Part shown: in pieces, positions 11,607-29,388 of the stretch
How positions within the stretch are numbered: position 1 is the first letter of the stretch
How the letters are laid out: each line of letters opens with the position of its first letter
Assembly (NCBI GenBank): GCA_027491915.1
Contig: JAOZGC010000002.1
Location: 1 to 64,000, forward strand
DNA length: 64,000 nt
Source of the DNA: Thermoproteota archaeon
Lineage (GTDB): Archaea; Korarchaeota; Korarchaeia; Korarchaeales; Korarchaeaceae
Direction: 5' to 3'
Program-made: the position numbers and the translations under genes
Notes under the pieces: generated by a model
The model's database searches: none
What the model was told of the DNA's origin: nothing
What the model saw: only the letters and a program-made list of their open reading frames with translations

Positions 11607-11628
11607 TGGGATCCGCCGGCGGGATGCG

Positions 11629-12698: not shown

Positions 12699-12705
12699 GA
12701 AGAGG

Positions 12706-12783: not shown

Positions 12784-12802
12784 GGGTTCCGGGCCGCCGC
12801 GG

Positions 12803-12814: not shown

Positions 12815-12834
12815 GTCGATTCCCCCTCCCCGCG

Positions 12835-15088: not shown

Positions 15089-15909
15089 TCCATCCCCACC
15101 CCCAGGGAGAGCAGCTCGGAGACTCTCCTCCTCAGAACGGACTCGTTCACTCCAACCGCCCTGGCTATCAGGGCCTGGGACGGATTCCTCATTCCCAGGG
15201 TGAGGGCCGCTATGTACACCACGGCGGCGGCGGTCACCAGGGGACTCTTGCCCGGGGACAGCCTCCTCAGCCCCTCGTTCCGTGACAGTCTCAAGGCCCT
15301 CATCCTTATCCTCTCTAGGACGGACCAAAATCTCCTCTCTGGGAAGGACTCTTTCATCCTCTTCTCGACGTCCCTGCTCCTCCCCATGCTCCGAATGACG
15401 CTGGACACGTACTCGCTTAGGGGGGGAATCCTCCATACACCGAGCGACTTCCCATGATTCGCGACTCGGACCGCTATTTTCCTCTTAGACACGCTCAAAC
15501 CCAGCCTCCTCAAGGCTGCCGCGGCCTCTCCGGTCGTTATCAGGTAATGCAGCTGCCTTCCGGCCAAGATGAGGGCCACGGCCGCCAGTAGAAATCCACC
15601 CCTGGAATCCGACTTCAGGACCCAGTATATCCTCGCGGCGAGCTCTTCCACTTTCCGCGGCGCGTCTAATAGTCCGGCCAACTCCCTTACAGGGGGAGGA
15701 ACCTCGGCCGTGATGGGGTAAGATTGGGAGCGCTCGACGTGGGTATAGCAGAGCTCGGGATGGTCGAGTTCTCCGCCCGGATCCAGAGCGGCCACATATC
15801 CGCTGGGCACGGGTTCGCCGGACATCCTGAAATTCAAACAGTTTTCTGAGTGATCCGTACTTAGGGAGGCCTGAGGATTATTTTTCCATATTCCAGAATT
15901 ATTTTCCAT
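15085..15909 (-). CDS. TFB-like transcription factor lacking a canonical zinc ribbon
   Basis: 274 residues. Two cyclin-like repeats are visible: about 85-160 (GGFLLAAVALILAGRQLH...) and about 215-272, where GKSPLVTAAAVVYIAALTLG matches the second TFIIB repeat closely and is followed by an IARAVGVNESVLRRRV recognition-helix-like segment. The N-terminus should carry a CxxC...CxxC ribbon to recruit RNA polymerase, but only isolated cysteines (CLNF, ELCYTH) are present. It overlaps rpo8 by 11 nt upstream and the HerA-like gene by 4 nt downstream. It may be a specialised or regulatory TFB, or a non-transcriptional cyclin-box protein. Confidence 0.72.
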   Translation of the reverse strand: MENNSGIWKNNPQASLSTDHSENCLNFRMSGEPVPSGYVAALDPGGELDHPELCYTHVERSQSYPITAEVPPPVRELAGLLDAPRKVEELAARIYWVLKSDSRGGFLLAAVALILAGRQLHYLITTGEAAAALRRLGLSVSKRKIAVRVANHGKSLGVWRIPPLSEYVSSVIRSMGRSRDVEKRMKESFPERRFWSVLERIRMRALRLSRNEGLRRLSPGKSPLVTAAAVVYIAALTLGMRNPSQALIARAVGVNESVLRRRVSELLSLGVGMD

Positions 15910-16252
15910 ACAAGACTATTTTTAAATAAATCACATCTCCAACCTCTACCTCCGGCCGCGCGGAGCCGGTGAGGCGAATCAACATCCCGTGGGCCGAGGC
16001 GCTCGCGGCCTCACCGTCAACGGAGTATACAACTCCTCTGAGGACGAGCGCGTCAGGGCTGGAGGCAGGTCTATCCCTCGATATCTCCACCTCCACCTCC
16101 ATCTCCTCTGAAATTTCGACGAGTTTGGGTGGGATCTCCAGGGTCACGTTTCCTCCGTCGAGGGAGATATCCACCCTCAACATCTTCATGTTGGGGATCC
16201 CCGAAACGCCGACCACCCTACCCCTTGTCGTCAGTAAGGGCCCCGATTCCAT
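15899..16252 (-). CDS. rpo8: Probable RNA polymerase subunit Rpo8 (RpoG)
   Basis: 117-residue, beta-rich, OB-fold-like protein. The pattern LVLRGVVYSV ... SAHGMLIRLTG ... VEVGDVIYLKIV resembles archaeal Rpb8 orthologs, which occur in Crenarchaeota and Korarchaeota. This is a pattern-level match without a search, so an unrelated OB-fold protein remains possible. The ATG at 16252 lies about 25-30 nt after a TATA box, consistent with a leaderless first gene. It is followed in the operon by a TFB paralog, supporting a transcription role. Confidence 0.55.
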   Translation of the reverse strand: MESGPLLTTRGRVVGVSGIPNMKMLRVDISLDGGNVTLEIPPKLVEISEEMEVEVEISRDRPASSPDALVLRGVVYSVDGEAASASAHGMLIRLTGSARPEVEVGDVIYLKIVLYGK

Positions 16253-16275
16253 GGCGTTGGAGGAACCGAGAGACC

Positions 16276-16290
16276 TTCAATAAACTTTCC
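16276..16290. promoter_or_regulatory. Shared TATA box, rpo8 / downstream hypothetical gene
   Basis: TTCAATAAACTTTCC reads as a TATA box on both strands: 25-30 nt before the rpo8 ATG on minus and about 50 nt before the ATG at 16334 on plus. Confidence 0.5.
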
Positions 16291-16333
16291 TCTCCCGCGG
16301 CCCGCATAATCCCGAACTCTCTCTGGGAAGGAG

Positions 16334-16630
16334 ATGGGGGGGGTTGAGAGGGCCCTGATGGATCAGATCCTGATAAAGAGGATCGTCAGATCCATCCTTT
16401 TCGAGGGCGGGAGCTGGTCGCCCGGCGTCCTCCTGAGTTCGATAGTCGACCTCAGCGAGTCCCTCCCCGGAGCGGAAGATGGGATCGCGAGGAGCACCGT
16501 GGAGGAGATAAAGAAGCTGGTCGCCGAGGGTGATCCCGAGAACGTCCTGGTGATCTCCTCCTCGGTCACCAATCTGGTGAGGAGGGGAGTCCGCCACCTC
16601 GTGGCTGCTGGAGATCAAATCTCCTCGTGA
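16334..16630 (+). CDS. Hypothetical protein
   Basis: 98 residues, mostly helical, with no recognised motif; segments such as STVEEIKKLVAEGDPENVLVISSS look like a folded protein rather than shadow sequence. Start is ATG 16334 or ATG 16358. It overlaps the convergent PRC-barrel gene by 16 nt. Confidence 0.5.
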   Translation: MGGVERALMDQILIKRIVRSILFEGGSWSPGVLLSSIVDLSESLPGAEDGIARSTVEEIKKLVAEGDPENVLVISSSVTNLVRRGVRHLVAAGDQISS

Positions 16631-16902
16631 GTGGCTATGTATATCTTCAACAAACGTTCATCTATAACTATCATCTCCCTTATATATTTCACGGTAGAAT
16701 AGGGAACAAGCACCAGACCTTTCCTATCTTGCTTCAACTTCTTCACGAGAGATTCTGCCGCTCCCTTGGCCTCCTTGACCACCAGGGAGAGGGCCTTCCC
16801 GGAGAGCTCGTCCACCACCAGATCCACCAGCTCTCCTATTATCAAGCCCCTATCCGTGACGACCCCCTTTCCGGCGAGCCTCCCTATCGAGTAACGCGGC
16901 AT
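16615..16902 (-). CDS. PRC-barrel domain protein
   Basis: 95 residues with a PRC-barrel pattern (IGRLAGKGVVTDRGLIIGEL ... LVLVPYSTVKYIREMIVID). Archaeal single-domain PRC-barrel proteins include CdpB-type cell-division adaptors and RNA-metabolism proteins; the specific role is not clear here. ATG at 16902 chosen because longer frames enter the tRNA-Val gene. Confidence 0.72.
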   Translation of the reverse strand: MPRYSIGRLAGKGVVTDRGLIIGELVDLVVDELSGKALSLVVKEAKGAAESLVKKLKQDRKGLVLVPYSTVKYIREMIVIDERLLKIYIATHEEI

Positions 16903-16922
16903 CAATCTCCCCCAACTCCGGG

Positions 16923-17012
16923 TGGTGGGCCGGGGGGGACTCGAACCCCCGACCTCCGCCGTTTCCTCCCGCGGGAGTGAGGGCGGCGTCATGGCCGCTA
17001 GACCACCGGCCC
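16923..17012 (-). tRNA. tRNA-Val (anticodon CAC) with 14-nt intron
   Basis: Acceptor GGGCCGG/CCGGCCC, T arm GGGGG-TTCGAGT-CCCCC, discriminator A, and CCA encoded at 16923-16925. The anticodon stem CCGCC/GGCGG encloses 21 nt instead of 7. CCTC/GAGG pairing with three-base bulges ACT and AAA forms a bulge-helix-bulge; removing 14 nt (about 16963-16976) leaves loop CTCACAC with anticodon CAC. The exact splice sites could shift by 1 nt. The body is identical to tRNA-Val(GAC) at 10173-10248. Confidence 0.9.
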
Positions 17013-17032
17013 CCTGTGAGATTCCGGGAGGG

Positions 17033-17043
17033 CCATAAAAAGG
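17033..17043 (-). promoter_or_regulatory. TATA box of tRNA-Val(CAC)
   Basis: CCTTTTTATGG on the minus strand, about 25 nt before the tRNA 5' end at 17012. Confidence 0.55.
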
Positions 17044-17067
17044 TTGGTGCGGTACCGATCTCCAGAC

Positions 17068-17088
17068 GGGGGCTCGGTACTCAAGATC
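17068..17088 (+). repeat. Left attachment-site repeat (attL)
   Basis: Five G followed by CTCGGTACTCAAGATC; matches 27836-27856 in 20 of 21 positions in the same orientation. It lies 25 nt outside the tRNA-Val(CAC) TATA box, not within the tRNA. Confidence 0.75.
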
Positions 17089-17246
17089 AAATTTTTTGTC
17101 GTGATCAGGGGATAACCGGGATCTTCCCCTACCGAATAAGGGGACTTTCTAACGCTTATTAGCTTTTCCCCCGGGGGTACTGATCAACCCCCGCGTCGGG
17201 AGGAAGGAGTGGGGATTGGTCACCATTATTGAAATCCGGGATTTGG

Positions 17247-17365
17247 CCGCCAATTTTTCTCTGGATTCCCAGAGCGATCTGCCATAGCAGAGGCGCCAAA
17301 ATTATCGGCACCCGATAATTGCCGGTTTTTCTCGCGAAAAGGAGAGAGAAGAGCGGGTTTCGCTG
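17247..17365 (+). repeat. 119-bp hairpin-rich inverted repeat, copy A
   Basis: By eye identical over 119 bp to the reverse complement of 23853-23971. It contains four consecutive small hairpins: CTCTGG/CCAGAG at 17259-17274, TCTGC/GCAGA at 17278-17291, AATTATCGG/CCGATAATT at 17300-17320, and TTTTC/GAAAA at 17327-17340. It supplies the last codons and stop of the membrane protein gene. The remaining 17089-17246 stretch shows no convincing gene. Confidence 0.85.
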
Positions 17366-18039
17366 TCGCGGTGAGGGTTGGGTGGTTCTGGACGCTCGAA
17401 GAATGGCATGCCACTTTCTTCCGGGGTCAAGATCCCCGATATCCCCTCGGCCAGGTCGGCCGCCGCCCCCTGGAGCCGCAGCAGGGAGGCGACCAGTAGG
17501 GCGGGGACCGCCGCGACCTCCACCAACATCAGCGCGACGACGGCGGCCGCCGCGGTCATGCCCACGAGATCCCAGGGGTCCGCCCCGGGGGGAGGGACCG
17601 GGGATCCACCCCCCCCGACCACCGCCAGGGCGGACTCCAAGGCCCCGGTCAGCGGGAGGAGCGAGACCGCCAGGGCGGAGGAGGTCGCGCCCACCCCGAT
17701 CGCGCCCACCACCCTGGCGGCCCTGGAGACCTCCCACCCCCTCCTCCTCAGGAGCGCCACCACGACGGGGGTGGCGGCGTCCGAGACCAGCCTCACCATC
17801 CCCTGGAGCCCGATCGTCCAATTCGACCAGAGCCCCGCCAGGGCGGCGGGCAGCCCCTCGATCAGCACCGCCGCCGCGGCGCCCAGGGCACCCGGCATCC
17901 CCAGGGCGGCGGGGATCACGCCCCCCGCCACCAGGGAGCCCAGGGGAAAGAGACCCATCATCCCCCCCAGGACGGCCCCCATCGCGGTCCTGGCGGCGAA
18001 CCAACTCCCGATCCCGATCCCCCCGGCTGGTCGACTCAC
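17302..18039 (-). CDS. Element multi-spanning membrane protein
   Basis: 245 residues, rich in Ala/Gly/Leu/Val, with about five hydrophobic segments (roughly 18-45, 48-72, 107-135, 160-192 and a weaker one near 85). No family recognised; in this context it could be a pore or anchor for DNA transfer or virion egress. The GTG at 18039 overlaps the nuclease stop (GTGA). The last 20 or so residues (ETRSSLSFSREKPAIIGCR) and the stop come from the 119-bp repeat, so the native C-terminus was replaced or fixed by it. Confidence 0.62.
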   Translation of the reverse strand: MSRPAGGIGIGSWFAARTAMGAVLGGMMGLFPLGSLVAGGVIPAALGMPGALGAAAAVLIEGLPAALAGLWSNWTIGLQGMVRLVSDAATPVVVALLRRRGWEVSRAARVVGAIGVGATSSALAVSLLPLTGALESALAVVGGGGSPVPPPGADPWDLVGMTAAAAVVALMLVEVAAVPALLVASLLRLQGAAADLAEGISGILTPEESGMPFFERPEPPNPHRDSETRSSLSFSREKPAIIGCR

Positions 18040-18488
18040 AGCAGGCCCGCCCACCTGAGCCACCTCTCGAGGTTCCTGGGGGTCAACCTCCCCAGTCTCC
18101 CGCCCCTCCCCGGCCCGACCCACACCCAGGCCCGGGCCTTGGATAACAGGGTCTCGGGCCTCTTGGGAAATCCCAAGACCCCGACGACGCAGAAGGGCTC
18201 CGGGTGCTCCCTGCGAAAGGCCCTATTGACCCCCCTGATCAACCCATCGAGGCGGCGGGAGCCCTTAACCTCCACGAAGGCCCTGATTCCCCTCCCGATC
18301 AGCTCGATGTCATAGGGGGCGTGGTCCGACTGCGTTACAACCCTCACGTCCGGCAGGTTGAGCCGGGCCAAGATGATCTCCAGGGCCCCGGCAACCGTCC
18401 GCTCGAGCCTCCTACCCATCCTTTTGTTGTAGCCGCCGAGGGCGGACCTCGGGGAGACGCGGACCTCGGGGAGACCATTGTCATCCAC
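18036..18488 (-). CDS. PD-(D/E)XK nuclease, Hjc-like
   Basis: 150 residues. A basic KRMGRRLERTVAGALEIIL helix with its glutamate is followed by PYDIELIGRGIRAFVEVKG, the PD-(D/E)XK core (D ... E-V-K). This order matches Holliday-junction resolvases of the Hjc type and related element nucleases; substrate unproven. GTG at 18488 chosen: GGGAAG lies just upstream, and a TATA-like box is at 18534-18544. It is followed by the membrane protein with a 4-nt overlap. Confidence 0.65.
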   Translation of the reverse strand: MDDNGLPEVRVSPRSALGGYNKRMGRRLERTVAGALEIILARLNLPDVRVVTQSDHAPYDIELIGRGIRAFVEVKGSRRLDGLIRGVNRAFRREHPEPFCVVGVLGFPKRPETLLSKARAWVWVGPGRGGRLGRLTPRNLERWLRWAGLL

Positions 18489-18533
18489 CTTCCCACTACC
18501 CCCCCAACTGATCTCCCCCAGGGATCCCTTTTG

Positions 18534-18544
18534 TTTTATTTTTG
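18534..18544 (-). promoter_or_regulatory. TATA-like box before the element nuclease gene
   Basis: AAAAATAAAAC on the minus strand in the 185-nt gap between the ATPase and nuclease genes, about 50 nt before the GTG start. It breaks an otherwise tightly overlapped operon. Confidence 0.45.
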
Positions 18545-18673
18545 AACGGAGTGAAAGTTTCCAATACCTCCAACTGCTTGGGGGAGGGAGGCAGCGGGGG
18601 GAAATCCGAGGCAGAACAGAGTCGGAGAGTGTGAGATGAAGGGCTGGGAGGAAAATGCGGCCGGAGATGGGCC

Positions 18674-20308
18674 TCAACTTCTGCCACCGGCTGCTGGAAG
18701 CCTCTTTATGACCCTGTCGTACTTGGACCCGTGGGCTCTGAGGTGGGCCCTGTAACGCTCGACCTCCAGGGTTCCGCCCAGGTTCCCCTCGCTGTCACGC
18801 CAGAACCTGAAGCCCATCACCCTGAGCTGGATCCTATTCTTCCTCGACCTCAGCATCTGCTCGACCTTGCTCGGGGCTATCGCCATCTGGGCTCGGGGTC
18901 CCCAGACCTGTCTGGCCCAGGCGGCGGGCTGAGAGATCGAGAAGCTGAAGACCTCACGCCCGTCGAGCGGGGCCCTGAGCTTGAAGATCTCAACGAATAA
19001 CGCGAGTTTTTGGGGGATGCGGTCGAGTATCATGGTCTCGGGAGGCGGCAGCTCTATCTCAAGCTGGTCCAGCTCGTCGAAGTTTTCCCCCTGTAGGAGC
19101 CGAGCCCTGGCCAGCCAGTACCTGTACCTCCTCCTGGCCTCCTCGAACTCCTCCTTGAGCTTCCTCCTGGGGACCAACTCAGCGTACAGCTTGCTGAGTC
19201 CGGCGGCATCTTCTGAACTCTTAGGTTCCGGCATCCTGAGACTCATGGGGGGAGGAAACGTCACGAGTTCGGCGTGCCCGCTCTTGGCGATGAAGATCCA
19301 CTTGCCGGGGATCATCCTGCGCATCGGAACCACCGTGTGGATGACGGCCTTGGAGATCGGGAAATACTTGGCCAGCTCCTTCCTCTGCCTCTCCTCCTTC
19401 AGGTTCATGGGGTGGATGAAGACCGCCTGAGTGTTATCGAGGAGAGTTTTGGGGACGCTCTGGACGTTCTGAACCTCGTAGAAGACCCTGGTAAGGGCTG
19501 TCCTGGTCTGTCTGAGCAGGGTCACGAAGTTCTCGATCCTCTCCCTCAGGTGCCAGGTGGAGCCCATCGCCCCGACCCTGGGGGCCACCTCCCTCAGCTC
19601 GCGGAAGTGCACGATCATCCTGGCGTCCTCTATAGCCTGAACCAGGTGCCCCATGAGGTTGTCCAGCACGACGTTGAGGGCGAACCTCCCCAGGTCCCGC
19701 ACGGAGGGCTTGAAGTACGCGCCGCTCAGCACCGTGAAGTCGCGCCTCTGGACGATCTCGACGAGCCTCTCGGGCTCGAGGGGCGATTCGTCTGCCAAGA
19801 ACCCAGAAGTGAGGAGGGCCAAGAGCCTGGGGCTCACCTTCTCCCCCCTCTTCCTGAGCAAGGCCTCGATTATGGCGTCGAGCTCCGCGTCCGGCCCGCC
19901 GGCCGAGTAATAGGCGTCGAACAGGTCCCTGGTCTCCGAGGGGCTCAGGAAACCCCCAAGGCTCCTAAAGTGCCCGAAGCTGAGCATCTTAATGCTCAGG
20001 GAGGCCAACCTGAACCTCGTGGGCACCGCATCCATGGCCAGGGGGAAGTTGAAGGTCAGGTACTCGGTATCCCATCCCCTCGGCTCCAGGCCCCTGGCCC
20101 TGAGGGAGAGGGCCTGGACCCCCCTCGCCGGGAGGTGAAGGGTCTCGTCCTCTCCCTTCACGTCGATCACGAGGGGGTGCCAGCCCCTCAGTGCCAGGAG
20201 CTCGAGGACTAGCTGAGCCGTCCACGTCTTGCTTGCGCCCCTTATCCCTATGAAGCCGATGCAGGACGTCTCCCGCGCCAGGATCTGCTGGAGGTACTCC
20301 TCGCTCAA
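18674..20308 (-). CDS. FtsK/HerA/VirD4-type ATPase with altered Walker motifs
   Basis: 544 residues. The N-terminus has GIRGASKTWTAQ, a P-loop in which the usual Gly before Lys is Ser, followed by PLVIDVKGED, the strand typical of FtsK/HerA/VirD4 ATPases. The Walker B position reads MIVHFRELREVAP, with Arg-Glu where Asp-Glu is normal. The later TRVFYEVQNVQSVPKTLLDN fits the conserved Gln region of this class. A C-terminal domain of about 200 residues is unrecognised. Likely a DNA pump for conjugation, packaging or partition; activity is uncertain given the substitutions. ATG overlaps the coiled-coil gene's stop. Confidence 0.62.
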   Translation of the reverse strand: MSEEYLQQILARETSCIGFIGIRGASKTWTAQLVLELLALRGWHPLVIDVKGEDETLHLPARGVQALSLRARGLEPRGWDTEYLTFNFPLAMDAVPTRFRLASLSIKMLSFGHFRSLGGFLSPSETRDLFDAYYSAGGPDAELDAIIEALLRKRGEKVSPRLLALLTSGFLADESPLEPERLVEIVQRRDFTVLSGAYFKPSVRDLGRFALNVVLDNLMGHLVQAIEDARMIVHFRELREVAPRVGAMGSTWHLRERIENFVTLLRQTRTALTRVFYEVQNVQSVPKTLLDNTQAVFIHPMNLKEERQRKELAKYFPISKAVIHTVVPMRRMIPGKWIFIAKSGHAELVTFPPPMSLRMPEPKSSEDAAGLSKLYAELVPRRKLKEEFEEARRRYRYWLARARLLQGENFDELDQLEIELPPPETMILDRIPQKLALFVEIFKLRAPLDGREVFSFSISQPAAWARQVWGPRAQMAIAPSKVEQMLRSRKNRIQLRVMGFRFWRDSEGNLGGTLEVERYRAHLRAHGSKYDRVIKRLPAAGGRS

Positions 20309-21414
20309 TCGGTCTCCCTCCTTCTTCCCCCCTTGAGCAGGGCCTCCTCTATCTTACTCTTGGGGAGGCCCCTCTCGGTCACGATCGAGAAGGCCCTGTT
20401 GAGCACCTCTGGGTACTTGCTGGCTATCTGGCCGATGGTGTAGTTGGCGAAATCTATCATGGTCTGGACGAGGGCCCCGATCGGGAGGTCACCCTCGTTC
20501 ACGTGACCCACGCCTCTTTTGGATCTATTGGCGGCGATCCAGGCCCTGTACACCTCTTCGGGATTGTAGACCCTTATGGTCTTCTTCTCCACCTTCCAGG
20601 TAAGGAAAGGCTTCTTTCTCGTGTGATCCCCCACCTCTATCCCCGCGGCCCTGGCGAGGGGCAGGACGTTCGAGACGAAGGCGGTTATCTTATGCTCTAT
20701 CTCATAGAAGGCGAAGTATTGGGCCAGGACCTTGGCCAAGGCGTCAGCGATCTCCCTCCGGAGACTTTGATTTTCCTCGACGGATCCGACCGGGGTGACG
20801 TACTGAAACACGTCGACAGCTTTCTCTGGCATTATGTGAAGCTCCCGGCCGTCCAGAACCACTACCTTCCCGTCGAACTCGCCCCCCCTGATCTTCAGAA
20901 ACTGAAATACGCTCCCCTCCAGCCTCCCCTCGTAGAGGGTCCAACCGCGATTCCTGATCAACTCCCAGATGACGGCTGCCGCTTCCTTGGGAAGTTCCAT
21001 CGAGATCCCCCCCGTCTCATCATCCCTCCTCACTCGGTACTGGTTCCTCATTCTCTTGTTCTCGGCCCTGAGCCGCTCGATCTCTGCCTTGAGGCCCTCA
21101 ATCTTGCTGGACAATTCTCTGAACTTGGCCAACAGGGAGGAGGCCTCATTCTTGGTGAATTCGACGGAGAACCAATCAAAATATGTGCGGTGGAGCCTTT
21201 TCCTCACCTTGTCCAAGGCCCTCTGGGCCGCCGACGAGTCGACCTTCACCGACGAGTCGACCTTCAGGGGGACCAGGCTCTCCGTGGCCTCCCCCGCCTC
21301 TGCGGGGGTTTTTCGATCGTTTACGGGGGTATCGAGAGGACAGGCCCACCGAGATCTCCCCGCCAGACGTGAACGGTTTTCAGATCGGTGTGTGCGGGTT
21401 TCCGCCCGAGACAT
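20305..21414 (-). CDS. Coiled-coil protein of unknown function
   Basis: 369 residues. A low-complexity basic N-terminus (about 1-60) contains the repeated KVDSS motif from an 18-bp tandem duplication. A strong coiled coil follows (LSSKIEGLKAEIERLRAENK, about 103-125), then a mixed alpha/beta domain of about 230 residues. No family recognised. Linked by 4-nt overlaps to the short recombinase upstream and the ATPase downstream, so probably a partner of the ATPase. Confidence 0.6.
   Translation of the reverse strand: MSRAETRTHRSENRSRLAGRSRWACPLDTPVNDRKTPAEAGEATESLVPLKVDSSVKVDSSAAQRALDKVRKRLHRTYFDWFSVEFTKNEASSLLAKFRELSSKIEGLKAEIERLRAENKRMRNQYRVRRDDETGGISMELPKEAAAVIWELIRNRGWTLYEGRLEGSVFQFLKIRGGEFDGKVVVLDGRELHIMPEKAVDVFQYVTPVGSVEENQSLRREIADALAKVLAQYFAFYEIEHKITAFVSNVLPLARAAGIEVGDHTRKKPFLTWKVEKKTIRVYNPEEVYRAWIAANRSKRGVGHVNEGDLPIGALVQTMIDFANYTIGQIASKYPEVLNRAFSIVTERGLPKSKIEEALLKGGRRRETD
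21231..21266 (+). repeat. 18-bp tandem duplication
   Basis: Two exact adjacent copies of CCGACGAGTCGACCTTCA. In the coding strand it adds six codons in frame, giving KVDSSVKVDSS in the coiled-coil protein. Confidence 0.9.
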
Positions 21415-21983
21415 CAACCGCCCACCCCCCTCAGAACCTCCAGGGCCTTGGCCTTCTGCGTATACCGGAGGAGGTGGCTCAGGTCGCTGTGTCCAAGGAT
21501 CTTTGCTATCAGTTGGGCGCTCACACCCCTCTCCGCCAGGCGGGTGACGAAGGCGTACCTCATGCTGTGCGTGTTCACTCCGAGGTGGTACCTGGCGAAG
21601 GCCTTGACCCGGTGCCGGTTCAACCCGCCCACCACGGGGGAGACCAACCTGAGGTCCTCCCGGGTCACGGACCTGGGGAGGACGACCGTCCTGGTCTGCG
21701 GGACGCGCTTCTTCTCGATCCGGACCTCCACCTCCCTCTCCCCCGTCTCGCAGAACCTCCTCAGGGCCTCGATGGCCTCCCCAACCCGGCACCCGTTCCT
21801 CAGCTGAATCAGGAGGACCAGGATGTCGGCGAGCCTCCCGATCCTCCTGCGTCCTCCCCTCCTGGCCGACTCCCTGGCCTCCCTGAGCATCCTGGTGAGC
21901 CTCCTCATCATCCCCTCGTAGTCGACCCCGCGGTCCCAGGTTCCAGGGACCCCGCGCCTCCGACCTGACGGTCTGGCCGTCAC
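21414..21983 (-). CDS. Short tyrosine recombinase (catalytic domain only)
   Basis: 189 residues. The catalytic set is present: Arg in RNGCRVGEAIEAL, HSMR in VNTHSMRYAFVTRL, the LGHSD segment and the nucleophile Tyr in LLRYTQ. The N-terminal core-binding domain of usual integrases is missing. It is related to the broken fragment at 26106-26459 (shared GTW-RGVDY, LLIQLRN and RVGEA) but not closely to the main integrase. GTG start; the stop overlaps the coiled-coil ATG. A role in resolving multimers or inverting DNA between the 119-bp repeats is speculative. Confidence 0.78.
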   Translation of the reverse strand: MTARPSGRRRGVPGTWDRGVDYEGMMRRLTRMLREARESARRGGRRRIGRLADILVLLIQLRNGCRVGEAIEALRRFCETGEREVEVRIEKKRVPQTRTVVLPRSVTREDLRLVSPVVGGLNRHRVKAFARYHLGVNTHSMRYAFVTRLAERGVSAQLIAKILGHSDLSHLLRYTQKAKALEVLRGVGG

Positions 21984-21989
21984 GCCACC

Positions 21990-22091
21990 TCACCTCCCCT
22001 TACTCTCGCCCCGATCGGATCCGGGGAGTCCTCCTGCGGTCTGCCTTCCCCTTAGGTCGATAAGGGGAGCGGAGGGTGCCCCGGTCCTCAT
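21990..22091 (-). CDS. Possible 33-residue small protein
   Basis: Starts with ATG inside the stop of the upstream gene (ATGA) and ends 6 nt before the recombinase start. Polar, no motif. Position and coupling are the only support. Confidence 0.3.
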   Translation of the reverse strand: MRTGAPSAPLIDLRGRQTAGGLPGSDRGESKGR

Positions 22092-22411
22092 CCGGACACC
22101 TCCCTCTTCTTCCTCTTCCCGGGAGGTCTGAGGACCTCGAAGTCGACTATCGCGGTCTTGACCAGCGCGATGCCCTCGCTCCTCCTCTTCCGCCCGCCCT
22201 GGAGGGTCCTCCCGTAGGTGAGAACGAGGTAACGTTCGTCTGAGGTGTTCAAGAAGCCGATGTACTCCAGCAGGATGGGTCTCTCGAGCTCCTCCTTCGG
22301 GTCTACAGAATCCTCGAAGGAGAAGTGGTCGAGGACGACCACCCTGACCAGCGCGCCCTCGGGCGCGTTCTCCCAGGGTGGCCTCTTTTCCCTCCTCTCC
22401 GACGCAGTCAA
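22088..22411 (-). CDS. Element hypothetical protein, 107 aa
   Basis: A beta-rich central part (ALVRVVVLDHFSFED, RPILLEYIGFLNTSDERYLV) is flanked by charged termini ending in a basic PPGKRKKREVSG tail. No family recognised. TTG start overlapping the upstream stop (TTGA). Confidence 0.55.
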   Translation of the reverse strand: MTASERREKRPPWENAPEGALVRVVVLDHFSFEDSVDPKEELERPILLEYIGFLNTSDERYLVLTYGRTLQGGRKRRSEGIALVKTAIVDFEVLRPPGKRKKREVSG

Positions 22412-22719
22412 GATCGGACACCTCCCTCTCCCCCCGGCCGGCCGTCTGCCGCCGACCCGACCCGAGCGAGGAGGATCTCCCCGCCCAACCGGGCGGCCAA
22501 GTCGGCCAGGCCGCCCACGTGCGGCGGATCCAAGAGCCTCCTCTTGCCCAGTCCCAGCACGACGGGGGGTCCCCCGGACCTGAGCCTGACCCTGGCGTAG
22601 AATCCATCCCTCCAGAACAGCTCGACGATCGACTCGAGGGTGACCCGCTCCAGCAGGAGCCGGGAGCCCCTCGGCAGCTCGGTCAGCACCCGAACCAAGC
22701 CCTCCCTCCGTCTCCGCAT
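22408..22719 (-). CDS. Element hypothetical protein, 103 aa
   Basis: Basic N-terminus MRRRREGLVRVLTELPRGSR followed by a beta-strand-rich region. No recognised family. ATG at 22719, 4 nt after the upstream stop; the earlier in-frame ATG would overlap the upstream gene deeply. Confidence 0.5.
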   Translation of the reverse strand: MRRRREGLVRVLTELPRGSRLLLERVTLESIVELFWRDGFYARVRLRSGGPPVVLGLGKRRLLDPPHVGGLADLAARLGGEILLARVGSAADGRPGGEGGVRS

Positions 22720-22723
22720 CCCA

Positions 22724-23419
22724 TCACCCCACGTAGTCCAACTCACCCCCATCTCTCCCCCCTCCCCTCCCTCCCGCCAGATCGTCAACGAACCTCTCGA
22801 TCAGCTCTGGGGTCTCCCTCCTCCTGCTCTCGAGGAACCGCCCCACCCTCTCGGAGTAATCTCTCAGCCAGGAAGCCCTCGGGAACGCCCTCACGAGCTC
22901 CCCATAGGATCGGAGGTGCATGCCCGCCAGCACCTCGTCCGGGACGGAACTGAAGAGCCTCAGCAGGGTCGAGATCCTCCTGAGGTGGACCGCGGACTCT
23001 TCCCCGACCCGGAGGTCGATCACCACGACCTCCCTCCCATCGGAGAGTCCCAGCTTCCCACCCTCGAGGATCTCCGAGACGAAGTCGAATAGCGGGGGGA
23101 GGAAGAGGTAGGCCCGCCTCAGGGGTTTCTCCCTCCCCCGGACGACCCTGACGTTCAGGATCGCCAGGGTCGGGAGCACCACCTCGAGCCTGAGCTCCAA
23201 CTCACGGGGGTTCGGGAGGTCCCTGACCCTCAGCCTCCTGTCGACGATCACCGGGAGGGTCGGGCTCGGGGGGGATCCCCAACCCTCCTCTCCCCTGATT
23301 TCGAAGAACCCAGCATCCCCCGGTCCGACGATGAAGATGCTCTTCCCCCCCAAGAGGCGCCTGAGGTGCCTCGTGAGGTCGGAGGTGGGGAGGAGCTCGA
23401 AGGTTCGGACGGAGCTCAC
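22724..23419 (-). CDS. Element hypothetical protein, 231 aa
   Basis: Alternating beta and helical segments (KSIFIVGPGDAGFFEIRG, REVVVIDLRVGEESAVH) and a Gly/Asp-rich end. No recognised family. GTG start overlapping the stop of the replication gene (GTGA), so it is in the same operon and expected at similar levels. Confidence 0.55.
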   Translation of the reverse strand: MSSVRTFELLPTSDLTRHLRRLLGGKSIFIVGPGDAGFFEIRGEEGWGSPPSPTLPVIVDRRLRVRDLPNPRELELRLEVVLPTLAILNVRVVRGREKPLRRAYLFLPPLFDFVSEILEGGKLGLSDGREVVVIDLRVGEESAVHLRRISTLLRLFSSVPDEVLAGMHLRSYGELVRAFPRASWLRDYSERVGRFLESRRRETPELIERFVDDLAGGRGGGRDGGELDYVG

Positions 23420-25590
23420 GGATTGACACCTCCCACCTCTCCCCCCGGGAGGAGGGGCTCGGCCTTCCCGGTCTGGATCAGAACGCGGGCCACCTCCCTG
23501 GGGAGCCGGACGACCCTCCCGGGGGAGAAGGGGCCGGCGGTCCTCAAGCTTCCGTCCTCCCCCACCCCAACGACGAAGGACTCGACCTCCTCCAAGATGC
23601 GGACCACGACCCTCCCGTCGTCCACGTACTCCACCAGGACCCTGGTAGTCGACTCTCTCTCCCCACAGAGTTCGCAGACCCCGCCGGAAACCGACTCCCT
23701 CTTAAGGATGACTGCGCCGGGGTGGCCCGAGAGGTCACCCAGGCAGGACGGGCAGACGTCGATCCACTCCCGGGTCCGGGCGGCCGGCGCCTCCGGGGGT
23801 TCGGGTTGAGGGGAGGGACGAGAAGGTGGAGGGGTGGCTTTCAACTCTGAGTCAGCGAAACCCGCTCTTCTCTCTCCTTTTCGCGAGAAAAACCGGCAAT
23901 TATCGGGTGCCGATAATTTTGGCGCCTCTGCTATGGCAGATCGCTCTGGGAATCCAGAGAAAAATTGGCGGACGAATTCGGAATTCTCAATATTCCGGTG
24001 ATCGTTGATCCCGACCACCACCCGCATCCGCGGGTGATACCTCCTGAGCCTCCCCAGAGCCTCATCGAGCGAGAACTCCTCGAGGATCTCCGACGCCGAC
24101 AAACGCCTCCTTCTCCCGCCGATCTGATCCGGCAGCCAGATGTGGATGAGAGCCCGCCGTCGGTCCTCCGGGTCCTCCCTCCTGTCGACGTAGCCCGCCG
24201 CGAGCAGGGGTCGAATGTATCGCTTCCGGATCCGGTCGGAGGAGATCCTCTCCCCGCGGACCTCGAAGTACCGGTCCCCGATCTCGTCGTAGCCGACATC
24301 CTCCTGTCCTTCCTCGGCGAGAGGTTTTAAGATGTCCCAGTAAAACCGGAGGACGTCCTCCGCAACCCCCGCGAAGGTGGACTCGTAGACCCTCTGAAAG
24401 AGTTCCACCGCGTCGACGTAGTCCTGAAACGTTGCTAGGATGGAGCTGGCCCCGTCTCCCTCCATCACAACGGGCCTCTGGTTAGCCCTCAGGGCGGCAA
24501 AAATTTTAACCAAAATCAGAAGTTTCCCCAGGTCCCGCATGTCACGCGGGAACCTCATTCCGTAGGCCTTGGCGACGATTGGACCGAACAGGACCCTCAC
24601 CCTGAGCCCTTTCTCGAACTCGTCTCGGAGCCACCCGACATATCGTCTGATCGTGTCGCGGAGGAGTCTCAGCTCCGGATTGTCGAATTCCTCGGGGTAC
24701 CCGGCCTCCAGCCCTATTTTCTCCCCCGCGGCCTGGTACTTATGCCCCCCCATCTTAGGGGTCAGTGTGAGCGTCCTCGTCTCTAGGTAGTTGAGGGGCT
24801 GCTCGGAGCAGAAGATCGCGACGGGCCAGCCCCTCAGGACCACGGTCTGGGTTCGGAGGGACCCCCCCCTCGGCCTATCCGCGAACTTCCAGACGATCTC
24901 GCGTCGATCGTGGCTGAGCAGGGGCTTGAGCCGGTTGAAGGTCTCCAGGTGTGGGGGCTCGAGGAAGAGAAGCACCTTCCCATCGAGGTCGACGACCGTC
25001 CTAAGCCCAGCGACGACCTCGTAGTACGCTTCTTTACTCCTCCTCCTCAACTCCCGCAGGAGGGCGGGATCGACCGGCTGGCCCGAGCTGTCCTCCAGCC
25101 TCCCGCGCTCGTGGACGAGCGCAGTGGGGCTCATCCCCCCGAGCCACCAGACATCCTCCTCGGGGAGGAGGGAGAGGGCCATGATCGCAGTGTAGGTCTT
25201 CCCGACGGACTTCGGGCCCAGGAGGGCCAAGTTCAGGGGGTCGACGTAGGCCGACAGGCCCGCGAGGAACACCGCTAACCCCGTGACCTCATCCTCCCGC
25301 ACGTAGTGACCCAAATAGGCGAGGATGACTGGGAGGGGATCTGGCATGAGGGCTAGGCTGGTTTTCCGCGAGACCTCGGACCTCAGCCACCCGTGCCAGT
25401 CGACCGCGGGCACCCCGAGCGCCTCCTCGACGTCCCGAGGGTCCACCTGTTCGAGGAGGAGGTAGGGTCCGATTTCTCTATCCTCCTTAGCACCCGAGCG
25501 CCTGAGCCAGAACGCCGCCGTAGGGCCGTCCCGCCAGAGCACCTCGATCCGCCCGTCACAGGCGACCGCGACGACCCGCTCAGCCTCCAT
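23416..25590 (-). CDS. AAA+ replication-type ATPase with zinc ribbon
   Basis: 724 residues. Walker A GPKSVGKTYTA is near residue 125; a Walker-B-like hydrophobic strand ends in KVLLFLEPPHLETFNRLKPL; a sensor-like IFCSEQP follows. About 430-500 is a winged-helix domain (SSDRIRKRYIRPLLAAGYVDRR). Near the C-terminus CPSC ... CELC forms a zinc ribbon. The layout fits a plasmid-type replication helicase or initiator. About 40 residues before the Pro-rich linker are encoded by the 119-bp repeat read in frame, an insertion between the winged helix and the ribbon. Confidence 0.6.
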   Translation of the reverse strand: MEAERVVAVACDGRIEVLWRDGPTAAFWLRRSGAKEDREIGPYLLLEQVDPRDVEEALGVPAVDWHGWLRSEVSRKTSLALMPDPLPVILAYLGHYVREDEVTGLAVFLAGLSAYVDPLNLALLGPKSVGKTYTAIMALSLLPEEDVWWLGGMSPTALVHERGRLEDSSGQPVDPALLRELRRRSKEAYYEVVAGLRTVVDLDGKVLLFLEPPHLETFNRLKPLLSHDRREIVWKFADRPRGGSLRTQTVVLRGWPVAIFCSEQPLNYLETRTLTLTPKMGGHKYQAAGEKIGLEAGYPEEFDNPELRLLRDTIRRYVGWLRDEFEKGLRVRVLFGPIVAKAYGMRFPRDMRDLGKLLILVKIFAALRANQRPVVMEGDGASSILATFQDYVDAVELFQRVYESTFAGVAEDVLRFYWDILKPLAEEGQEDVGYDEIGDRYFEVRGERISSDRIRKRYIRPLLAAGYVDRREDPEDRRRALIHIWLPDQIGGRRRRLSASEILEEFSLDEALGRLRRYHPRMRVVVGINDHRNIENSEFVRQFFSGFPERSAIAEAPKLSAPDNCRFFSRKGERRAGFADSELKATPPPSRPSPQPEPPEAPAARTREWIDVCPSCLGDLSGHPGAVILKRESVSGGVCELCGERESTTRVLVEYVDDGRVVVRILEEVESFVVGVGEDGSLRTAGPFSPGRVVRLPREVARVLIQTGKAEPLLPGGEVGGVNP
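23853..23971 (-). repeat. 119-bp hairpin-rich inverted repeat, copy B
   Basis: Exact reverse complement of 17247-17365 by eye. It lies within the coding region of the AAA+ replication protein and stays open in that frame. No target-site duplication or terminal inverted repeat of its own is visible. Confidence 0.85.
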
Positions 25591-25708
25591 CGCCGCCCAC
25601 CTCCCTCGCCCTCTCGACCTTGGCCAACTCCGCCCTCCGCTCCGCCTCCTCGAGAATTTCCAAGAGCTTCCTCTCCACCGGCGAGAGGAAGGACCCCAGA
25701 ACCGTCAT
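25580..25708 (-). CDS. Small helical protein, first gene of the replication operon
   Basis: 42 residues (VLGSFLSPVERKLLEILEEAERRAELAK...), a single amphipathic helix pattern. ATG at 25708 is preceded by GGGAGG and lies about 30 nt after the predicted transcription start. A longer frame to 25849 exists but would run through the promoter and operator. The 3' end overlaps the replication gene by 11 nt. Confidence 0.45.
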   Translation of the reverse strand: MTVLGSFLSPVERKLLEILEEAERRAELAKVERAREVGGDGG

Positions 25709-25734
25709 CCCTCCCTTATTTTCTGTTAAACCCT

Positions 25735-25771
25735 CAAACGTCAAGCCAAACGTTGGTTCAAGTTTAATTAC
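25735..25771 (-). promoter_or_regulatory. Promoter with candidate RHH operator
   Basis: A TATA-like GTAATTAAAC (minus strand, 25762-25771) is followed by two direct copies of ACGTTTG (25747-25753 and 25735-25741) spaced 12 nt apart, covering the expected transcription start. This is a typical repressor position, next to a ribbon-helix-helix gene. Confidence 0.45.
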
Positions 25772-25855
25772 ACCCGGGCGGGAACCGGGCCTGGCCGCGG
25801 GGAGGACCCGGTCGGACTTGCGACCCACACGCGCGCGAGAGCCGCCCATCCATTC

Positions 25856-26038
25856 TCACCCCTCACCCGCGGCCTTTATCCCGACCCTCTCCAACTCCCT
25901 CCTGACGAGGTCTCGGATCAGCTCCGACCTCGTTGTGTAGCCTAGTTTTTTGATCAATCTCCATGTCGCGGCATCTAAGTCGTACGGAACCCGCACGAAC
26001 CAAATAATAGACCTCCCACCAGCCTGAGGCCTTCCCAT
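25856..26038 (-). CDS. Ribbon-helix-helix DNA-binding protein
   Basis: 60 residues. The strand WFVRVPYDLDAATW and helices RLIKKLGYTTRSELIRDLVRRELERV match the RHH (CopG/MetJ-like) fold of element copy-number and transcription regulators. ATG at 26038 with GGGAG upstream. Probably represses the replication operon through the ACGTTTG repeats just downstream, and perhaps itself through the inverted repeat in its own leader. Confidence 0.75.
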   Translation of the reverse strand: MGRPQAGGRSIIWFVRVPYDLDAATWRLIKKLGYTTRSELIRDLVRRELERVGIKAAGEG

Positions 26039-26057
26039 ATCTCCCTTTCTCCCGGGG

Positions 26058-26092
26058 GGATCGCACCCCGCGTGGGCGGCGTCAAGCGATCC
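26058..26092. promoter_or_regulatory. Inverted repeat in the RHH gene leader
   Basis: GGATCGC and GCGATCC separated by 21 nt, between the RHH start and a TATA-like GAATATAAGG at 26114-26123 (minus strand). Either an operator or an RNA hairpin. Confidence 0.35.
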
Positions 26093-26105
26093 GCCCTGAA
26101 ACTAG

Positions 26106-26459
26106 CTAGCCTCTCCTTATATTCTCTTCATATTTTCCCATGCTTATAATCATTATATTCGAAAAGTGGCCTCCAATGGTCATTTGTGGACATACGCCTC
26201 CCCTGAGGGTTCGGGAGATGTCGCCATTAGGATTGAGCGCCTCCACCGCCTCCCCCACCCTCATGGCGTTCCTCAGCTGGATCAGGAGGATCATCCTGTT
26301 CCTCAGGCCGGCGAGCTTCTTTCTCCCCCTGGTCTGCCTGGCCTCCTGGGCCAGGGCCCGGATGTCCCTCTCCAGGGCCCGGCGGGCGGCGTCGTAGTCG
26401 ACCCCCCGGGCCCAGGTCCCCCTCTTCGCCTCCCCCCCTAGGCGCGTTCCTCTTCGCAT
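26106..26459 (-). pseudogene. Truncated tyrosine recombinase fragment
   Basis: The first about 75 residues (GTWARGVDYD ... MILLIQLRNAMRVGEAVEAL) match the N-terminal part of the recombinase at 21414-21983, including the first catalytic Arg. After ALNPNGDIS the frame enters unrelated AT-rich sequence and stops; the His-X-X-Arg and Tyr boxes are absent. A remnant of an older copy or of a recombination event. 26460-26602 shows nothing convincing. Confidence 0.7.
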
Positions 26460-26602
26460 AATCTCCAAAAACGTAGATGAACATCTCCCTTGGGCATCAT
26501 CTCCGTAGATCCGCCCCTCTCGGGGGAACCCCGGGCGCCCCGCATCCGAATGCTGAGCCCCGCCAGAGCCGACGCGCCGCCGCGGGGGGTGGGGGTAACC
26601 TC

Positions 26603-27781
26603 TCACTCCCTCCCGTTCTGACCCTTCTCCCTCAACACCTCTGCCAACGCCCTTATCAGGGGTTCCCTCACCCTCGGGTCGCTCAAGAGCCTCAGGATCA
26701 TCTCCTCGAACTCCCTCTTCTCCCTGGCCGCCTCCCTCCTGGCCCTCTCGGTCAGCGGGTAGCCGCACCTCAGGCAGAACTCGGCCTCCCTGGGGTTCAC
26801 GTATCCGCACTCCGGGCACGTCAGGGGCTTGAGGGCCTCCACCCTCCTCCTATCCTCCCTCTCGGGAACCTCCATCCCGTAGGCCTTGAGTATCGCCCTC
26901 TCGGCGTCCCTCCCCGAGAGGTGGACGTAGACCGAGGCCATCTTGGAGTCCGGGGTCCAGCCGGCGAAGACCTTCAGCTCCTGCTCCGTCAGCCTGGTGG
27001 CCAGGTGGGTCAGCCTGGTGTGCCTCAGGGTGTGGGGGTGCACCCTCCTCCCCAGGCCGGCCTTCCTGGCGGCGTACCTCACGACCGCGGCCACCCCCCC
27101 CTCGGACATCCCCTCCACCCGGCCGCCCCTCCCCACCCTGGCGAACAGCGGGGCGTCGGGGTTCCCCGGGTCCGGGTGCACCAGGAGCCACTCCCTCAGG
27201 TAGGGAGCCGAGTTGACCAGGGGGACCGTCCTCTCCCCGGTCTTCCCGGACACCCTGATCTTGTACCCGTACCCGGTGCGCTCCAGGTCCCTCATCCTGA
27301 GGGAGCACAGCTCCCCCACCCTCAGGGCCCCCTCGTACAGGACCGCTATCGCCGCCTTGGCCCTGGGGGAGCGGGCGGCCCTCACCAGGGCCTCCACCTC
27401 CTCCGGGGAGAGGACCTCGTCCCTCAGGTTCCTCCTCCTGGCCCTGGGGGAGGATTTCCACCAGGCCAGGGGGTTGTCCCCGGGCCTGAGCCAGGAGTAG
27501 AAGGCCTTCAGCCTGGTCAGGTAGGTGTCCACCGTCGCCCCGGAGAGGGACGAGGCCAGGGTGTCCCTGAACCTCCTCAGGTCCCCCTCCGTCGCCCCCA
27601 GCGGGTCGATCCCCTCCCCCGCCAGCCTCTCCAGGGCCAGGGTGTAGACGTCCCTGGAGTGGGGGTTGGTCAGCCCCCTCTCCGAGAAGAACCTCTCCAC
27701 GGCCTCCCTCAGCTCTGGGGGGAACCTGGCCAGCCTCCTGGCCACCTTCGTCTCCTTCTTCTCCCTGGCCGGCCTGCCCAA
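26603..27781 (-). CDS. int: Tyrosine integrase with C-terminal zinc ribbon
   Basis: 392 residues. N-terminal SAM-like core-binding domain (about 20-110), then the catalytic domain: Arg in YEGALRVGEL, Lys in SGKTGERTVPL, HTLRH, and the Tyr in SVYVHLSG. A zinc ribbon follows (CPECGYVNP ... CLRCGYPL) with a charged helical tail. It catalyses integration/excision at the 21-bp repeats. Start TTG 27781 chosen because a TATA box lies at 27811-27820; a longer frame to 27832 is unlikely. Strongly biased to G/C-ending codons. Confidence 0.87.
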   Translation of the reverse strand: MGRPAREKKETKVARRLARFPPELREAVERFFSERGLTNPHSRDVYTLALERLAGEGIDPLGATEGDLRRFRDTLASSLSGATVDTYLTRLKAFYSWLRPGDNPLAWWKSSPRARRRNLRDEVLSPEEVEALVRAARSPRAKAAIAVLYEGALRVGELCSLRMRDLERTGYGYKIRVSGKTGERTVPLVNSAPYLREWLLVHPDPGNPDAPLFARVGRGGRVEGMSEGGVAAVVRYAARKAGLGRRVHPHTLRHTRLTHLATRLTEQELKVFAGWTPDSKMASVYVHLSGRDAERAILKAYGMEVPEREDRRRVEALKPLTCPECGYVNPREAEFCLRCGYPLTERARREAAREKREFEEMILRLLSDPRVREPLIRALAEVLREKGQNGRE

Positions 27782-27810
27782 CCAACCACCCGCGTCGCCC
27801 GCGCCCGATC

Positions 27811-27820
27811 GGATAAAAAG
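27811..27820 (-). promoter_or_regulatory. TATA box of the integrase gene
   Basis: CTTTTTATCC on the minus strand, 30-40 nt before the proposed TTG start, between the gene and the right att repeat. Confidence 0.5.
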
Positions 27821-27835
27821 AGATCGCCACAAAAT

Positions 27836-27856
27836 GGGGGCTCAGTACTCAAGATC
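27836..27856 (+). repeat. Right attachment-site repeat (attR)
   Basis: Five G followed by CTCAGTACTCAAGATC; one mismatch to the left copy at 17068-17088. Immediately upstream of the integrase promoter, the usual place for an integrase-proximal att site. Confidence 0.75.
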
Positions 27857-27913
27857 CTCATCAGGAGATCAGGGGGCCGAGGTCCTCATCGCCCCGTCCC
27901 CCGGGACGCGTCA

Positions 27914-27923
27914 ACGATAAAAT
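27914..27923 (+). promoter_or_regulatory. TATA box of the 27949 gene
   Basis: GATAAAATAC, about 27-30 nt before the ATG, so a leaderless transcript is expected. Confidence 0.5.
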
Positions 27924-27948
27924 ACCCACCGGCGGATTCCGCCGTCGG

Positions 27949-28308
27949 ATGGGCGACCAGATACCCCCCGAAATAGGGCGGATAATCAATATCTTATTTG
28001 TAAATGACGGAGGTCATAGAAAGAACAATCTGAGTGAGGTCCAACATAAAATTAAGGAAATTCGAGAGAGGGCCGACTCGGATTTCATCTCCGGTCTCGC
28101 CTTGGCCGCAGAGGGGGCGCTGACGGCCGTTGTGGAGGGGAGGGAACTCAGCCTCCCGGCGAGGATCCTGCGAGGACGGCGGAAGACTCTCCTCGAGGCT
28201 ATCTCAAGGTGGAGGCTCCCTCCGGCGCGCCTAGAGATGGAGGAGGGCTACATCTCCTTCTGGAGAGAGGTGGCCAAGATTGCCGGCATTGATCATCGCG
28301 GGAGGTGA
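27949..28308 (+). CDS. Hypothetical protein outside the element
   Basis: 119 residues, helical, with no family recognised. ATG at 27949 with a well placed TATA box supports expression. It overlaps the convergent AAA ATPase gene by 16 nt. The first chromosomal gene right of attR. Confidence 0.5.
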   Translation: MGDQIPPEIGRIINILFVNDGGHRKNNLSEVQHKIKEIRERADSDFISGLALAAEGALTAVVEGRELSLPARILRGRRKTLLEAISRWRLPPARLEMEEGYISFWREVAKIAGIDHRGR

Positions 28309-29363
28309 TACCTCCCCCTCCCCTTCTCCAACAATCCCCTGTTGACGTACTCTTCGAGAATCCTCCTAGCCTCCGTTATGGTGGTTCCCAACGCCCTGGA
28401 TGCCTCTATTATCGACACTCCATTGGACCTCGAGGCCAGGGACGCCAGCTCATCCGGGAGAGATCCCTTGGCCAGTTCCCTCGTTCCCCCTATCAGCCTC
28501 AGGAGGTCATCCTCGGTCGGCACGGTCCTGGACTGCTCCACCGCCAGGTGGGCGAGCACCATCCTGGCCAGCCTCAGCAGCCTCCTGGGGTTTCCTCTGG
28601 CCATTTTATTCATTTCTTTTATTAATTTTTCCGTGAATGGTGCTAAATTATCCCCATTTTCCGCTTTTATTCTATAATTTCTGAGCCTCTTCCTTATGAT
28701 CTCGACGGCCAGCTCGTCCGTGATCTCCGGGACCCTCATGACCTCCGCCCGCTGAATGAGGCTTCCCAACCTTGGCACCGCGGCGGGCACGCAGGAGATC
28801 AGTATGACCTTACCATCGCGCAGGGAAGAGTGGACCTCCCCTAGGAAGGTCACGAAGGCCGTTGAATCCCTCTTGGTGCCGCTGACCACAACGTTCTCTA
28901 TCTCATCCAGCATGAGCAGTAGCCTCGGGATCTTGTTTGCAGCCTCCGCCACCCTCCTCGCCAGTATCTTTATTCCCCTACTTCCACCTTCTCTGTGGCC
29001 CTTCCCAAAGAGCGGAAATCTCGGTCTGCCGAATGCACGCAGTATCTTCTCGGCCGACTCTAGGGCGTCGTCCGAATCTATCTTTACGTAGATCCTCTCG
29101 GCGTCGGCTAGGCTCTCCGACACGTATCTCAACTTCTGAGTCTTACCCATTCCAAATCTTCCTATTAATATGATTAATTTTTTTCCGTTTCCGCTCAGAG
29201 AATCCCTTATTACTTTCAGAAGCCTTTCATCAAACTCGGTCTTCACGTGGAGCGCGGCCACCTCGGGGGCCCCCTCGCTCGATAGGAACGAGAAGGGGTT
29301 GCCCCTCAGGGACCACCTGAGGTACCCCGCCTGGACCACCGCGCTCCTCTCTCCCTCGAACAT
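28293..29363 (-). CDS. AAA ATPase with C-terminal winged helix (Orc/ExeA-like)
   Basis: 356 residues. Walker A GRFGMGKTQK near residue 78, Walker B LLLMLDEIENV, a sensor LISCVPAAVPRLG, the lid helices ARGNPRRLLRLARMVLAHL, and a C-terminal HTH (VSIIEASRALGTTITEARRILEEYVNRG). The layout resembles Orc1/Cdc6 and related DNA-binding AAA proteins, but it lacks a clear initiator signature, so the substrate is open. ATG at 29363 is about 30 nt after a TATA box. Confidence 0.7.
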   Translation of the reverse strand: MFEGERSAVVQAGYLRWSLRGNPFSFLSSEGAPEVAALHVKTEFDERLLKVIRDSLSGNGKKLIILIGRFGMGKTQKLRYVSESLADAERIYVKIDSDDALESAEKILRAFGRPRFPLFGKGHREGGSRGIKILARRVAEAANKIPRLLLMLDEIENVVVSGTKRDSTAFVTFLGEVHSSLRDGKVILISCVPAAVPRLGSLIQRAEVMRVPEITDELAVEIIRKRLRNYRIKAENGDNLAPFTEKLIKEMNKMARGNPRRLLRLARMVLAHLAVEQSRTVPTEDDLLRLIGGTRELAKGSLPDELASLASRSNGVSIIEASRALGTTITEARRILEEYVNRGLLEKGRGRYHLPR

Positions 29364-29388
29364 CTCGGCCGCACCAGCCGACCCCAAC

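Follow-up and report, generated by a model that had tools for sequence, protein, structure and literature searches.

What is a block of genes that all face one way doing between chromosomal neighbors that lie close together in related genomes, and into what has it been inserted? The locus lies in a 64,000-nucleotide stretch of DNA (the window) from a Korarchaeaceae archaeon, part of contig C4 of a 1.12-Mb genome in 4 contigs that is 91% complete. The block spans positions 17068-27856 (~10.8 kb), next to a tRNA-Val gene. tRNA genes are the textbook integration target. We conclude, with a probability of roughly 0.87, that the block is a site-specific integrative element of Korarchaeia that encodes a tyrosine recombinase and is inserted in, and rebuilds, a gene for a box C/D small RNA (sRNA).

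The element is bracketed by 21-bp direct repeats at 17068-17088 and 27836-27856 that match at 20 of 21 positions, with one base different. When the two 300-bp border regions were shuffled 2000 times under a first-order Markov model, even the closest pair of 21-mers differed at three or more positions. Attachment (att) repeats are present at both borders, as in site-specific integrative elements, and only one such pair was detected. Every gene between them is on the minus strand, and the GC content is ~0.58-0.72 within the element compared with 0.54-0.62 outside. The original prediction had described near-identical repeats around a minus-strand block with an integrase, a ribbon-helix-helix regulator, an AAA+ ATPase, a HerA-like ATPase, a nuclease, and a membrane protein; the repeats withstand the shuffling and all of these gene classes are present.

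The chromosomal flanks are a PRC-barrel protein gene (16615..16992, minus strand, identified by protein family search) and a tRNA-Val (CAC) gene with a small intron (16923..17012, minus strand, found by tRNA search) on one side, and a small open reading frame (ORF; 27949..28308, plus strand) and an AAA ATPase gene (28293..29387, minus strand) on the other. Orthologues of the AAA gene are present in 23 of the 24 genomes of the family. In about 15 relatives the PRC-barrel gene is only ~575-973 bp away from the AAA gene on the same strand, and tRNA-Val overlaps or adjoins the PRC-barrel gene. Relatives have a single copy of the repeat, located between the AAA gene and tRNA-Val and beside a small opposite-strand ORF that is the counterpart of 27949-28308 by place, length, and orientation. 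This empty site (AAA gene, small opposite ORF, a ~60-bp conserved sequence, tRNA-Val, PRC-barrel gene) is carried by at least 15 and up to ~20 related Korarchaeia genomes. The end of the AAA gene is 405-627 bp from the repeat, which holds the sRNA guide, in the ~18 relatives that keep the gene order, versus 437 bp in the window. Given the single repeat copy and the proximity of the AAA and PRC-barrel genes in relatives, the ancestral order was AAA, small ORF, repeat, tRNA-Val, PRC-barrel, and 10,768 bp were inserted at the repeat. The empty-site comparison had been set beforehand as a test, and its outcome supports the earlier suggestion of an integrated element of a possibly undescribed, lineage-restricted kind. 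The tRNA-Val (CAC) gene of the window is ~14 nt longer than the relatives' copies, which fits a small anticodon-loop intron that the relatives are without.

Both 21-bp copies lie upstream of minus-strand genes, and they might be read as a regulatory or transcript-end motif shared by tRNA-Val and the integrase, with the block having arrived in some other way and the sRNA gene not being the integration site. We consider this very improbable: in relatives the one copy lies within the sRNA, between the flanks that the element parts, and the other copy coincides exactly with the opposite element border. The reading as a shared promoter motif is rejected on account of the empty site.

The original prediction missed the nature of the repeat. 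Rather than an anonymous intergenic att site, it forms the 3′ end of a gene for a box C/D sRNA and comprises the guide, the D box, and the 3′ stem. The ~60-bp sequence of the empty site contains GATGA (box C), CTGA (box D′), TGAAGA or TGATGA (box C′), the guide GATCTTGAGT, and CTGA (box D). It is closed by a terminal stem with a G-rich and a C-rich strand and is conserved across relatives, as is characteristic of the box C/D class. On this basis the conserved sequence is a predicted box C/D sRNA gene that is probably expressed. Box C GATGA and the guide GATCTTGAGT are invariant across 18 aligned sRNA sequences. The gene, with its invariant guide GAUCUUGAGU, occurs once per genome and at one locus in ~20 Korarchaeaceae; a sequence model of the sRNA matches ~20 family genomes at this locus, mostly as the lone strong match. 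The nearest Rfam model, snoPyro_CD, aligns over the full length with 27.4 bits, below its gathering score of 45, a score that is not class-defining for box C/D sRNAs because the Rfam models for them are lineage-specific.

Within the window the sRNA model has exactly two matches, and these are the two element borders: the full gene at 27835-27896 (minus strand, 51.8 bits, C, D′, C′, and D boxes present) and a 3′-partial match at 17068-17111 (18.0 bits). The repeat copy at attR (27836..27856, minus strand) supplies the guide, the D box CTGA, and the 3′ stem that complete the sRNA. A TATA-like sequence, GTATTTTATC, is found at 27917-27926, ~25 nt upstream of this intact copy. The copy at attL (17068..17088, minus strand) is a displaced 3′ fragment consisting of the guide, a D box changed to CCGA, and the 3′ stem; it lacks boxes C and C′ and is therefore expected to be without function. 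On the element side of attL, the flank (17089-17111) retains CCCCTGATC, which resembles the box D′ region of the sRNA.

Two extra 3′-half matches to the sRNA model were found in Methanodesulfokora, at ~6979-7018 of L096 and ~6974-6999 of L097. Their guides are GATTTTGAGTA and GATCTTGAGTA, box D is ATGA, and one of them adjoins a large restriction-like gene. They may be paralogues or old displaced fragments. We rejected such weak extra matches, in Methanodesulfokora and elsewhere, as further attL remnants since no element genes adjoin them.

The guide points to a tRNA. An 11-nt stretch, ACTCAAGATCC, is common to its reverse complement and the anticodon arm of tRNA-Leu (CAA), the gene for which is at 50097-50184. 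Counting upstream from box D, the fifth guide nucleotide lies opposite the wobble base C34, and the complementarity demanded by the D+5 rule is present. We therefore predict a 2′-O-methylated C34 (Cm34) in tRNA-Leu (CAA), a modification that the sRNA should direct. Pyrococcus is known to have sRNAs aimed at this position of this tRNA (PMC7994747). The korarchaeal sRNA has the same target tRNA and position, but its gene doubles as an attachment site, unlike the Pyrococcus Cm34 sRNAs (PMC7994747). A guide complementary to the anticodon loop that should direct C34 methylation would account for the strong conservation of the site, as for tRNA genes.

Two tyrosine recombinases of the element are complete, both with full catalytic sets. 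The larger is an Xer-like enzyme (26603..27781, minus strand; PF00589, 1.4e-20) with a C-terminal zinc ribbon (PF13240), in which the catalytic R-K-HxxR-W-Y residues are conserved in alignment. The original prediction had called this integrase correctly, but when it is aligned with its relatives the start falls at TTG 27781, probably in place of 27832, and a second recombinase and a truncated copy had been overlooked. The second is a compact protein of 189 aa (21414..21983, minus strand; phrog_9208, 3.7e-35) with a catalytic set that is complete by inspection. The truncated copy (26106..26462, minus strand) corresponds by protein comparison to the N-terminal part of the small recombinase. A pNOB8-type integrase, with the motif R...YxxR...Y (PMC8371274), was rejected because both recombinases carry HxxR instead. 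An SSV-type (suicidal) integrase was also rejected, as the gene at 26603-27781 is intact and the att site is upstream of its start.

Orthologues of the zinc-ribbon Xer-like integrase are found in five Korarchaeaceae (L070-L074), with no recognizable element genes where the context was read; the L072 orthologue adjoins an apparent DNA polymerase D small subunit gene. These loci were rejected as further sRNA-targeting elements because the contexts read contain no sRNA, no long repeats, and mostly host genes. Since the orthologues stand alone in relatives, the recombinase at 21414-21983 may be the active one. Two complete recombinases, a truncated small copy beside the large one, and a large integrase that occurs alone elsewhere would also suit a composite of two accreted elements, one being the Xer-like integrase by the sRNA and the other the small recombinase with the HerA module, with the truncated recombinase marking an old junction. 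We regard such accretion as possible but doubtful, given the single pair of att-like repeats and the single gene direction throughout.

For a single element integrated into the sRNA gene, we propose the following route. A recombinase borne by the element would recombine the 21-bp core on the circular form (attP) with the 3′ end of the chromosomal sRNA gene upstream of tRNA-Val, that is, its second guide, D box, and terminal stem. The 5′ part of the host gene would thereby join a 3′ part supplied by the element, and a complete sRNA would be formed at attR under the native promoter. Because the element brings in a copy of the sRNA 3′ end, the complete gene is rebuilt at this border. The old host 3′ end, its box D reading CCGA, would be displaced to attL. 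After excision, the element would be replicated by its AAA+ protein, which is of the PrimPol-helicase type without the primase part.

This AAA+ replication protein (23416..25590, minus strand) was characterized by protein comparison and profile searches. It shares 32-36% identity with the helicase portion of a protein from Methanodesulfokora that also has Prim-Pol and PriCT-1 domains, and it is in this respect like PrimPol-helicase plasmid replication proteins (Prim-Pol PF09250 plus AAA). Unlike them, it has no prim-pol domain, and its C-terminal end consists of a zinc-finger-like segment and a GINS B-like domain (Gins51_C; 23458..23610, minus strand; Pfam 2.2e-6, above the curated cut-off). 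The archaeal primase subunit PriS has the B-domain in common with GINS (PMC2861644). The Pfam profile finds the same small domain in the element protein, but here it is fused to an element-encoded AAA+ replication protein, unlike in GINS and PriS (PMC2861644). The domain could tether the AAA+ protein to the host replisome or primase. By inspection, the host primase small subunit (L081, 2-1081) also seems GINS-B-like at its C-terminus, and its gene adjoins the host Gins51 gene. We could not place the AAA+ protein in a named family: PDB and phage searches gave no match, and its own patterns had no specific match in viral or genome contigs.

Next in the element is a module built around a HerA/FtsK-like ATPase of 544 aa (18674..20308, minus strand). 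It has no sequence match in Pfam or PDB, and its HerA fold was recognized with Foldseek (T. kodakarensis HerA, E 4.2e-6, probability 1.00, TM ~0.37). Its relatives, 66, 54, 38, and 35% identical, are found only in Korarchaeia, for instance in Candidatus Methanodesulfokora washburnensis, which the genome set places in the same family; these named relatives also point to Korarchaeia as the lineage of the window. Associated with it are a nuclease of PD-(D/E)XK type with an uncertain start (18036..18677, minus strand; conserved pattern PYD...EVK...HPEPF, NOV_C match below cut-off), a multi-pass membrane protein from the ORF list (17302..18123, minus strand), the C-terminus of which runs into a 140-bp repeat, and a coiled-coil protein encoded upstream of the ATPase (20305..21459, minus strand), identified from the ORF list and the relatives' context. 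A conserved element protein (22724..23419, minus strand) has relatives in L064 and, by eye, in the remnant L068. The HerA/nuclease module was found in five genomes in all, every one from Korarchaeia. The order protein 22724, recombinase, coiled coil, HerA, nuclease is kept in L064, where the replication protein is another, unrelated one, and L068 holds a decayed copy. Rfam found no C/D sRNA at the borders of L064 and L068. The fold (Foldseek E 4e-6) and the nuclease pairing are like those of HerA-NurA and other HerA ATPases; the absence of a Pfam or PDB sequence match, the PD-(D/E)XK-like nuclease, and the restriction to Korarchaeia set the element protein apart. The ATPase, nuclease, and membrane protein probably serve DNA transport, packaging, or partition.

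The earlier statement that no hallmark genes are recognizable beyond the integrase and the replication ATPase largely stands. The element genes gave no match to a capsid, relaxase, or toxin-antitoxin protein, but the replication protein belongs to a PrimPol-helicase plasmid family and the HerA-fold ATPase/nuclease module defines the element's kin. In other Korarchaeia (L065, L066, and L067, the latter at 2269-17054), HerA/nuclease pairs are found amid large membrane and Ig-like proteins; these surroundings could belong to a virus, a surface or secretion system, or a transfer system.

The adjoining large signal/membrane and Ig-like proteins, with a weak terminase-like profile match (0.0024) in the element, would be consistent with a reduced provirus in which the HerA-like ATPase packages DNA and the relatives' large proteins are virion parts lost here. 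We think this unlikely. Family scans detected no capsid, portal, or terminase other than that trace, there is no viral family match, the patterns used found no HerA relative or other relative of the element among the 2.9 million viral contigs of IMG/VR, and the surface proteins are equally explicable as secretion or adhesion systems. We also doubt that the ATPase and nuclease are defense cargo, like HerA-Sir2, HerA-DUF4297, or Dnd/Tdp, on a plasmid-like integrative element. The best structural neighbors do include HerA-NurA, TdpAB, DndH, and Nezha HerA, and a DUF3800 gene adjoins the nuclease in L064 and L068, but no PADLOC model convincingly matches HerA, the nuclease, or the small proteins, and the synteny of the module with the recombinase suggests a core part of the element rather than cargo. 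Family scans of the element proteins found no relaxase or type IV secretion system proteins that would indicate a conjugative element, and a casposon was rejected since Cas1 is absent from the protein families found.

The remaining genes are a ribbon-helix-helix (CopG-type) regulator (25856..26038, minus strand; PF01402, 2.3e-5) and three minus-strand orphan ORFs of 89 aa (25580..25849), 126 aa (22408..22788), and 107 aa (22088..22411). The latter had been called orphans before, and profile searches gave no family for any of them. A repeat search also found a 140-bp inverted repeat pair, near-identical with ~116 bp exact and strongly structured (z = -3.3). Copy 1 (17227..17366, plus strand) is at the end of the membrane-protein gene and copy 2 (23853..23992, minus strand) is in frame within the AAA+ gene. 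The repeat was found in no other place than this element among 29 korarchaeal genomes and has the look of a small unit that recently moved or was duplicated.

Several points weigh against integration of a mobile element into an sRNA gene. The occupied site is known from one genome only. The local gene order is altered in G002, G003, and some g4/g5 genomes. The Xer-like integrase orthologues stand without element genes where their context was read. The sRNA is known as a prediction from sequence, and box D CCGA is also present in the intact sRNA of a relative (L022), so the box D change at attL alone is no proof of decay. The structure models are limited as well: that of the HerA-like ATPase is only moderate (pLDDT, the predicted local distance difference test, 63.8) and that of the AAA+ protein is unusable (pLDDT 36.6).

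Archaeal elements with classical tyrosine recombinases are known in tRNA genes, including pNOB8, pT26-2, SNJ2, and the thaumarchaeal integrated mobile genetic elements (iMGEs) (PMC8371274, PMC6563490), and the archaeal att targets given in the papers searched are tRNA genes, protein genes, and intergenic regions (PMC8371274, PMC6563490). The korarchaeal element is like these tRNA-gene elements in its direct-repeat att sites, the integrase beside att, and the empty site in relatives, and the target is likewise rebuilt at one end with a 3′ fragment displaced. It differs in its target, the gene of a box C/D RNA that guides methylation. The strings "sRNA", "snoRNA", and "Korarch" are all absent from a 2021 archaeal recombinase review (PMC8371274), and a 2021 review of archaeal C/D sRNAs considers mobile features of such genes still to be discovered (PMC7994747). 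We found no published archaeal case of sRNA-gene integration in the open-access literature, though earlier reports could exist. The mechanism is a familiar one that follows tRNA-gene logic; the target gene and the element lineage are unfamiliar.

The finding brings into view a family of korarchaeal mobile elements whose replication protein is unusual and has a GINS-like domain. It also provides a concrete, testable attB and prompts a second look at archaeal "intergenic" att sites. The targeted RNA gene has a guide that is antisense to a tRNA anticodon loop. We speculate, tentatively, that genes for box C/D sRNAs form a general class of archaeal integration site that has gone unnoticed, chosen because tRNA-antisense guides copy anticodon-loop sequence known to tRNA-targeting integrases. 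Some "intergenic" att sites would then be sRNA genes that have escaped annotation, and guide RNAs could be spread and made more diverse by integration.

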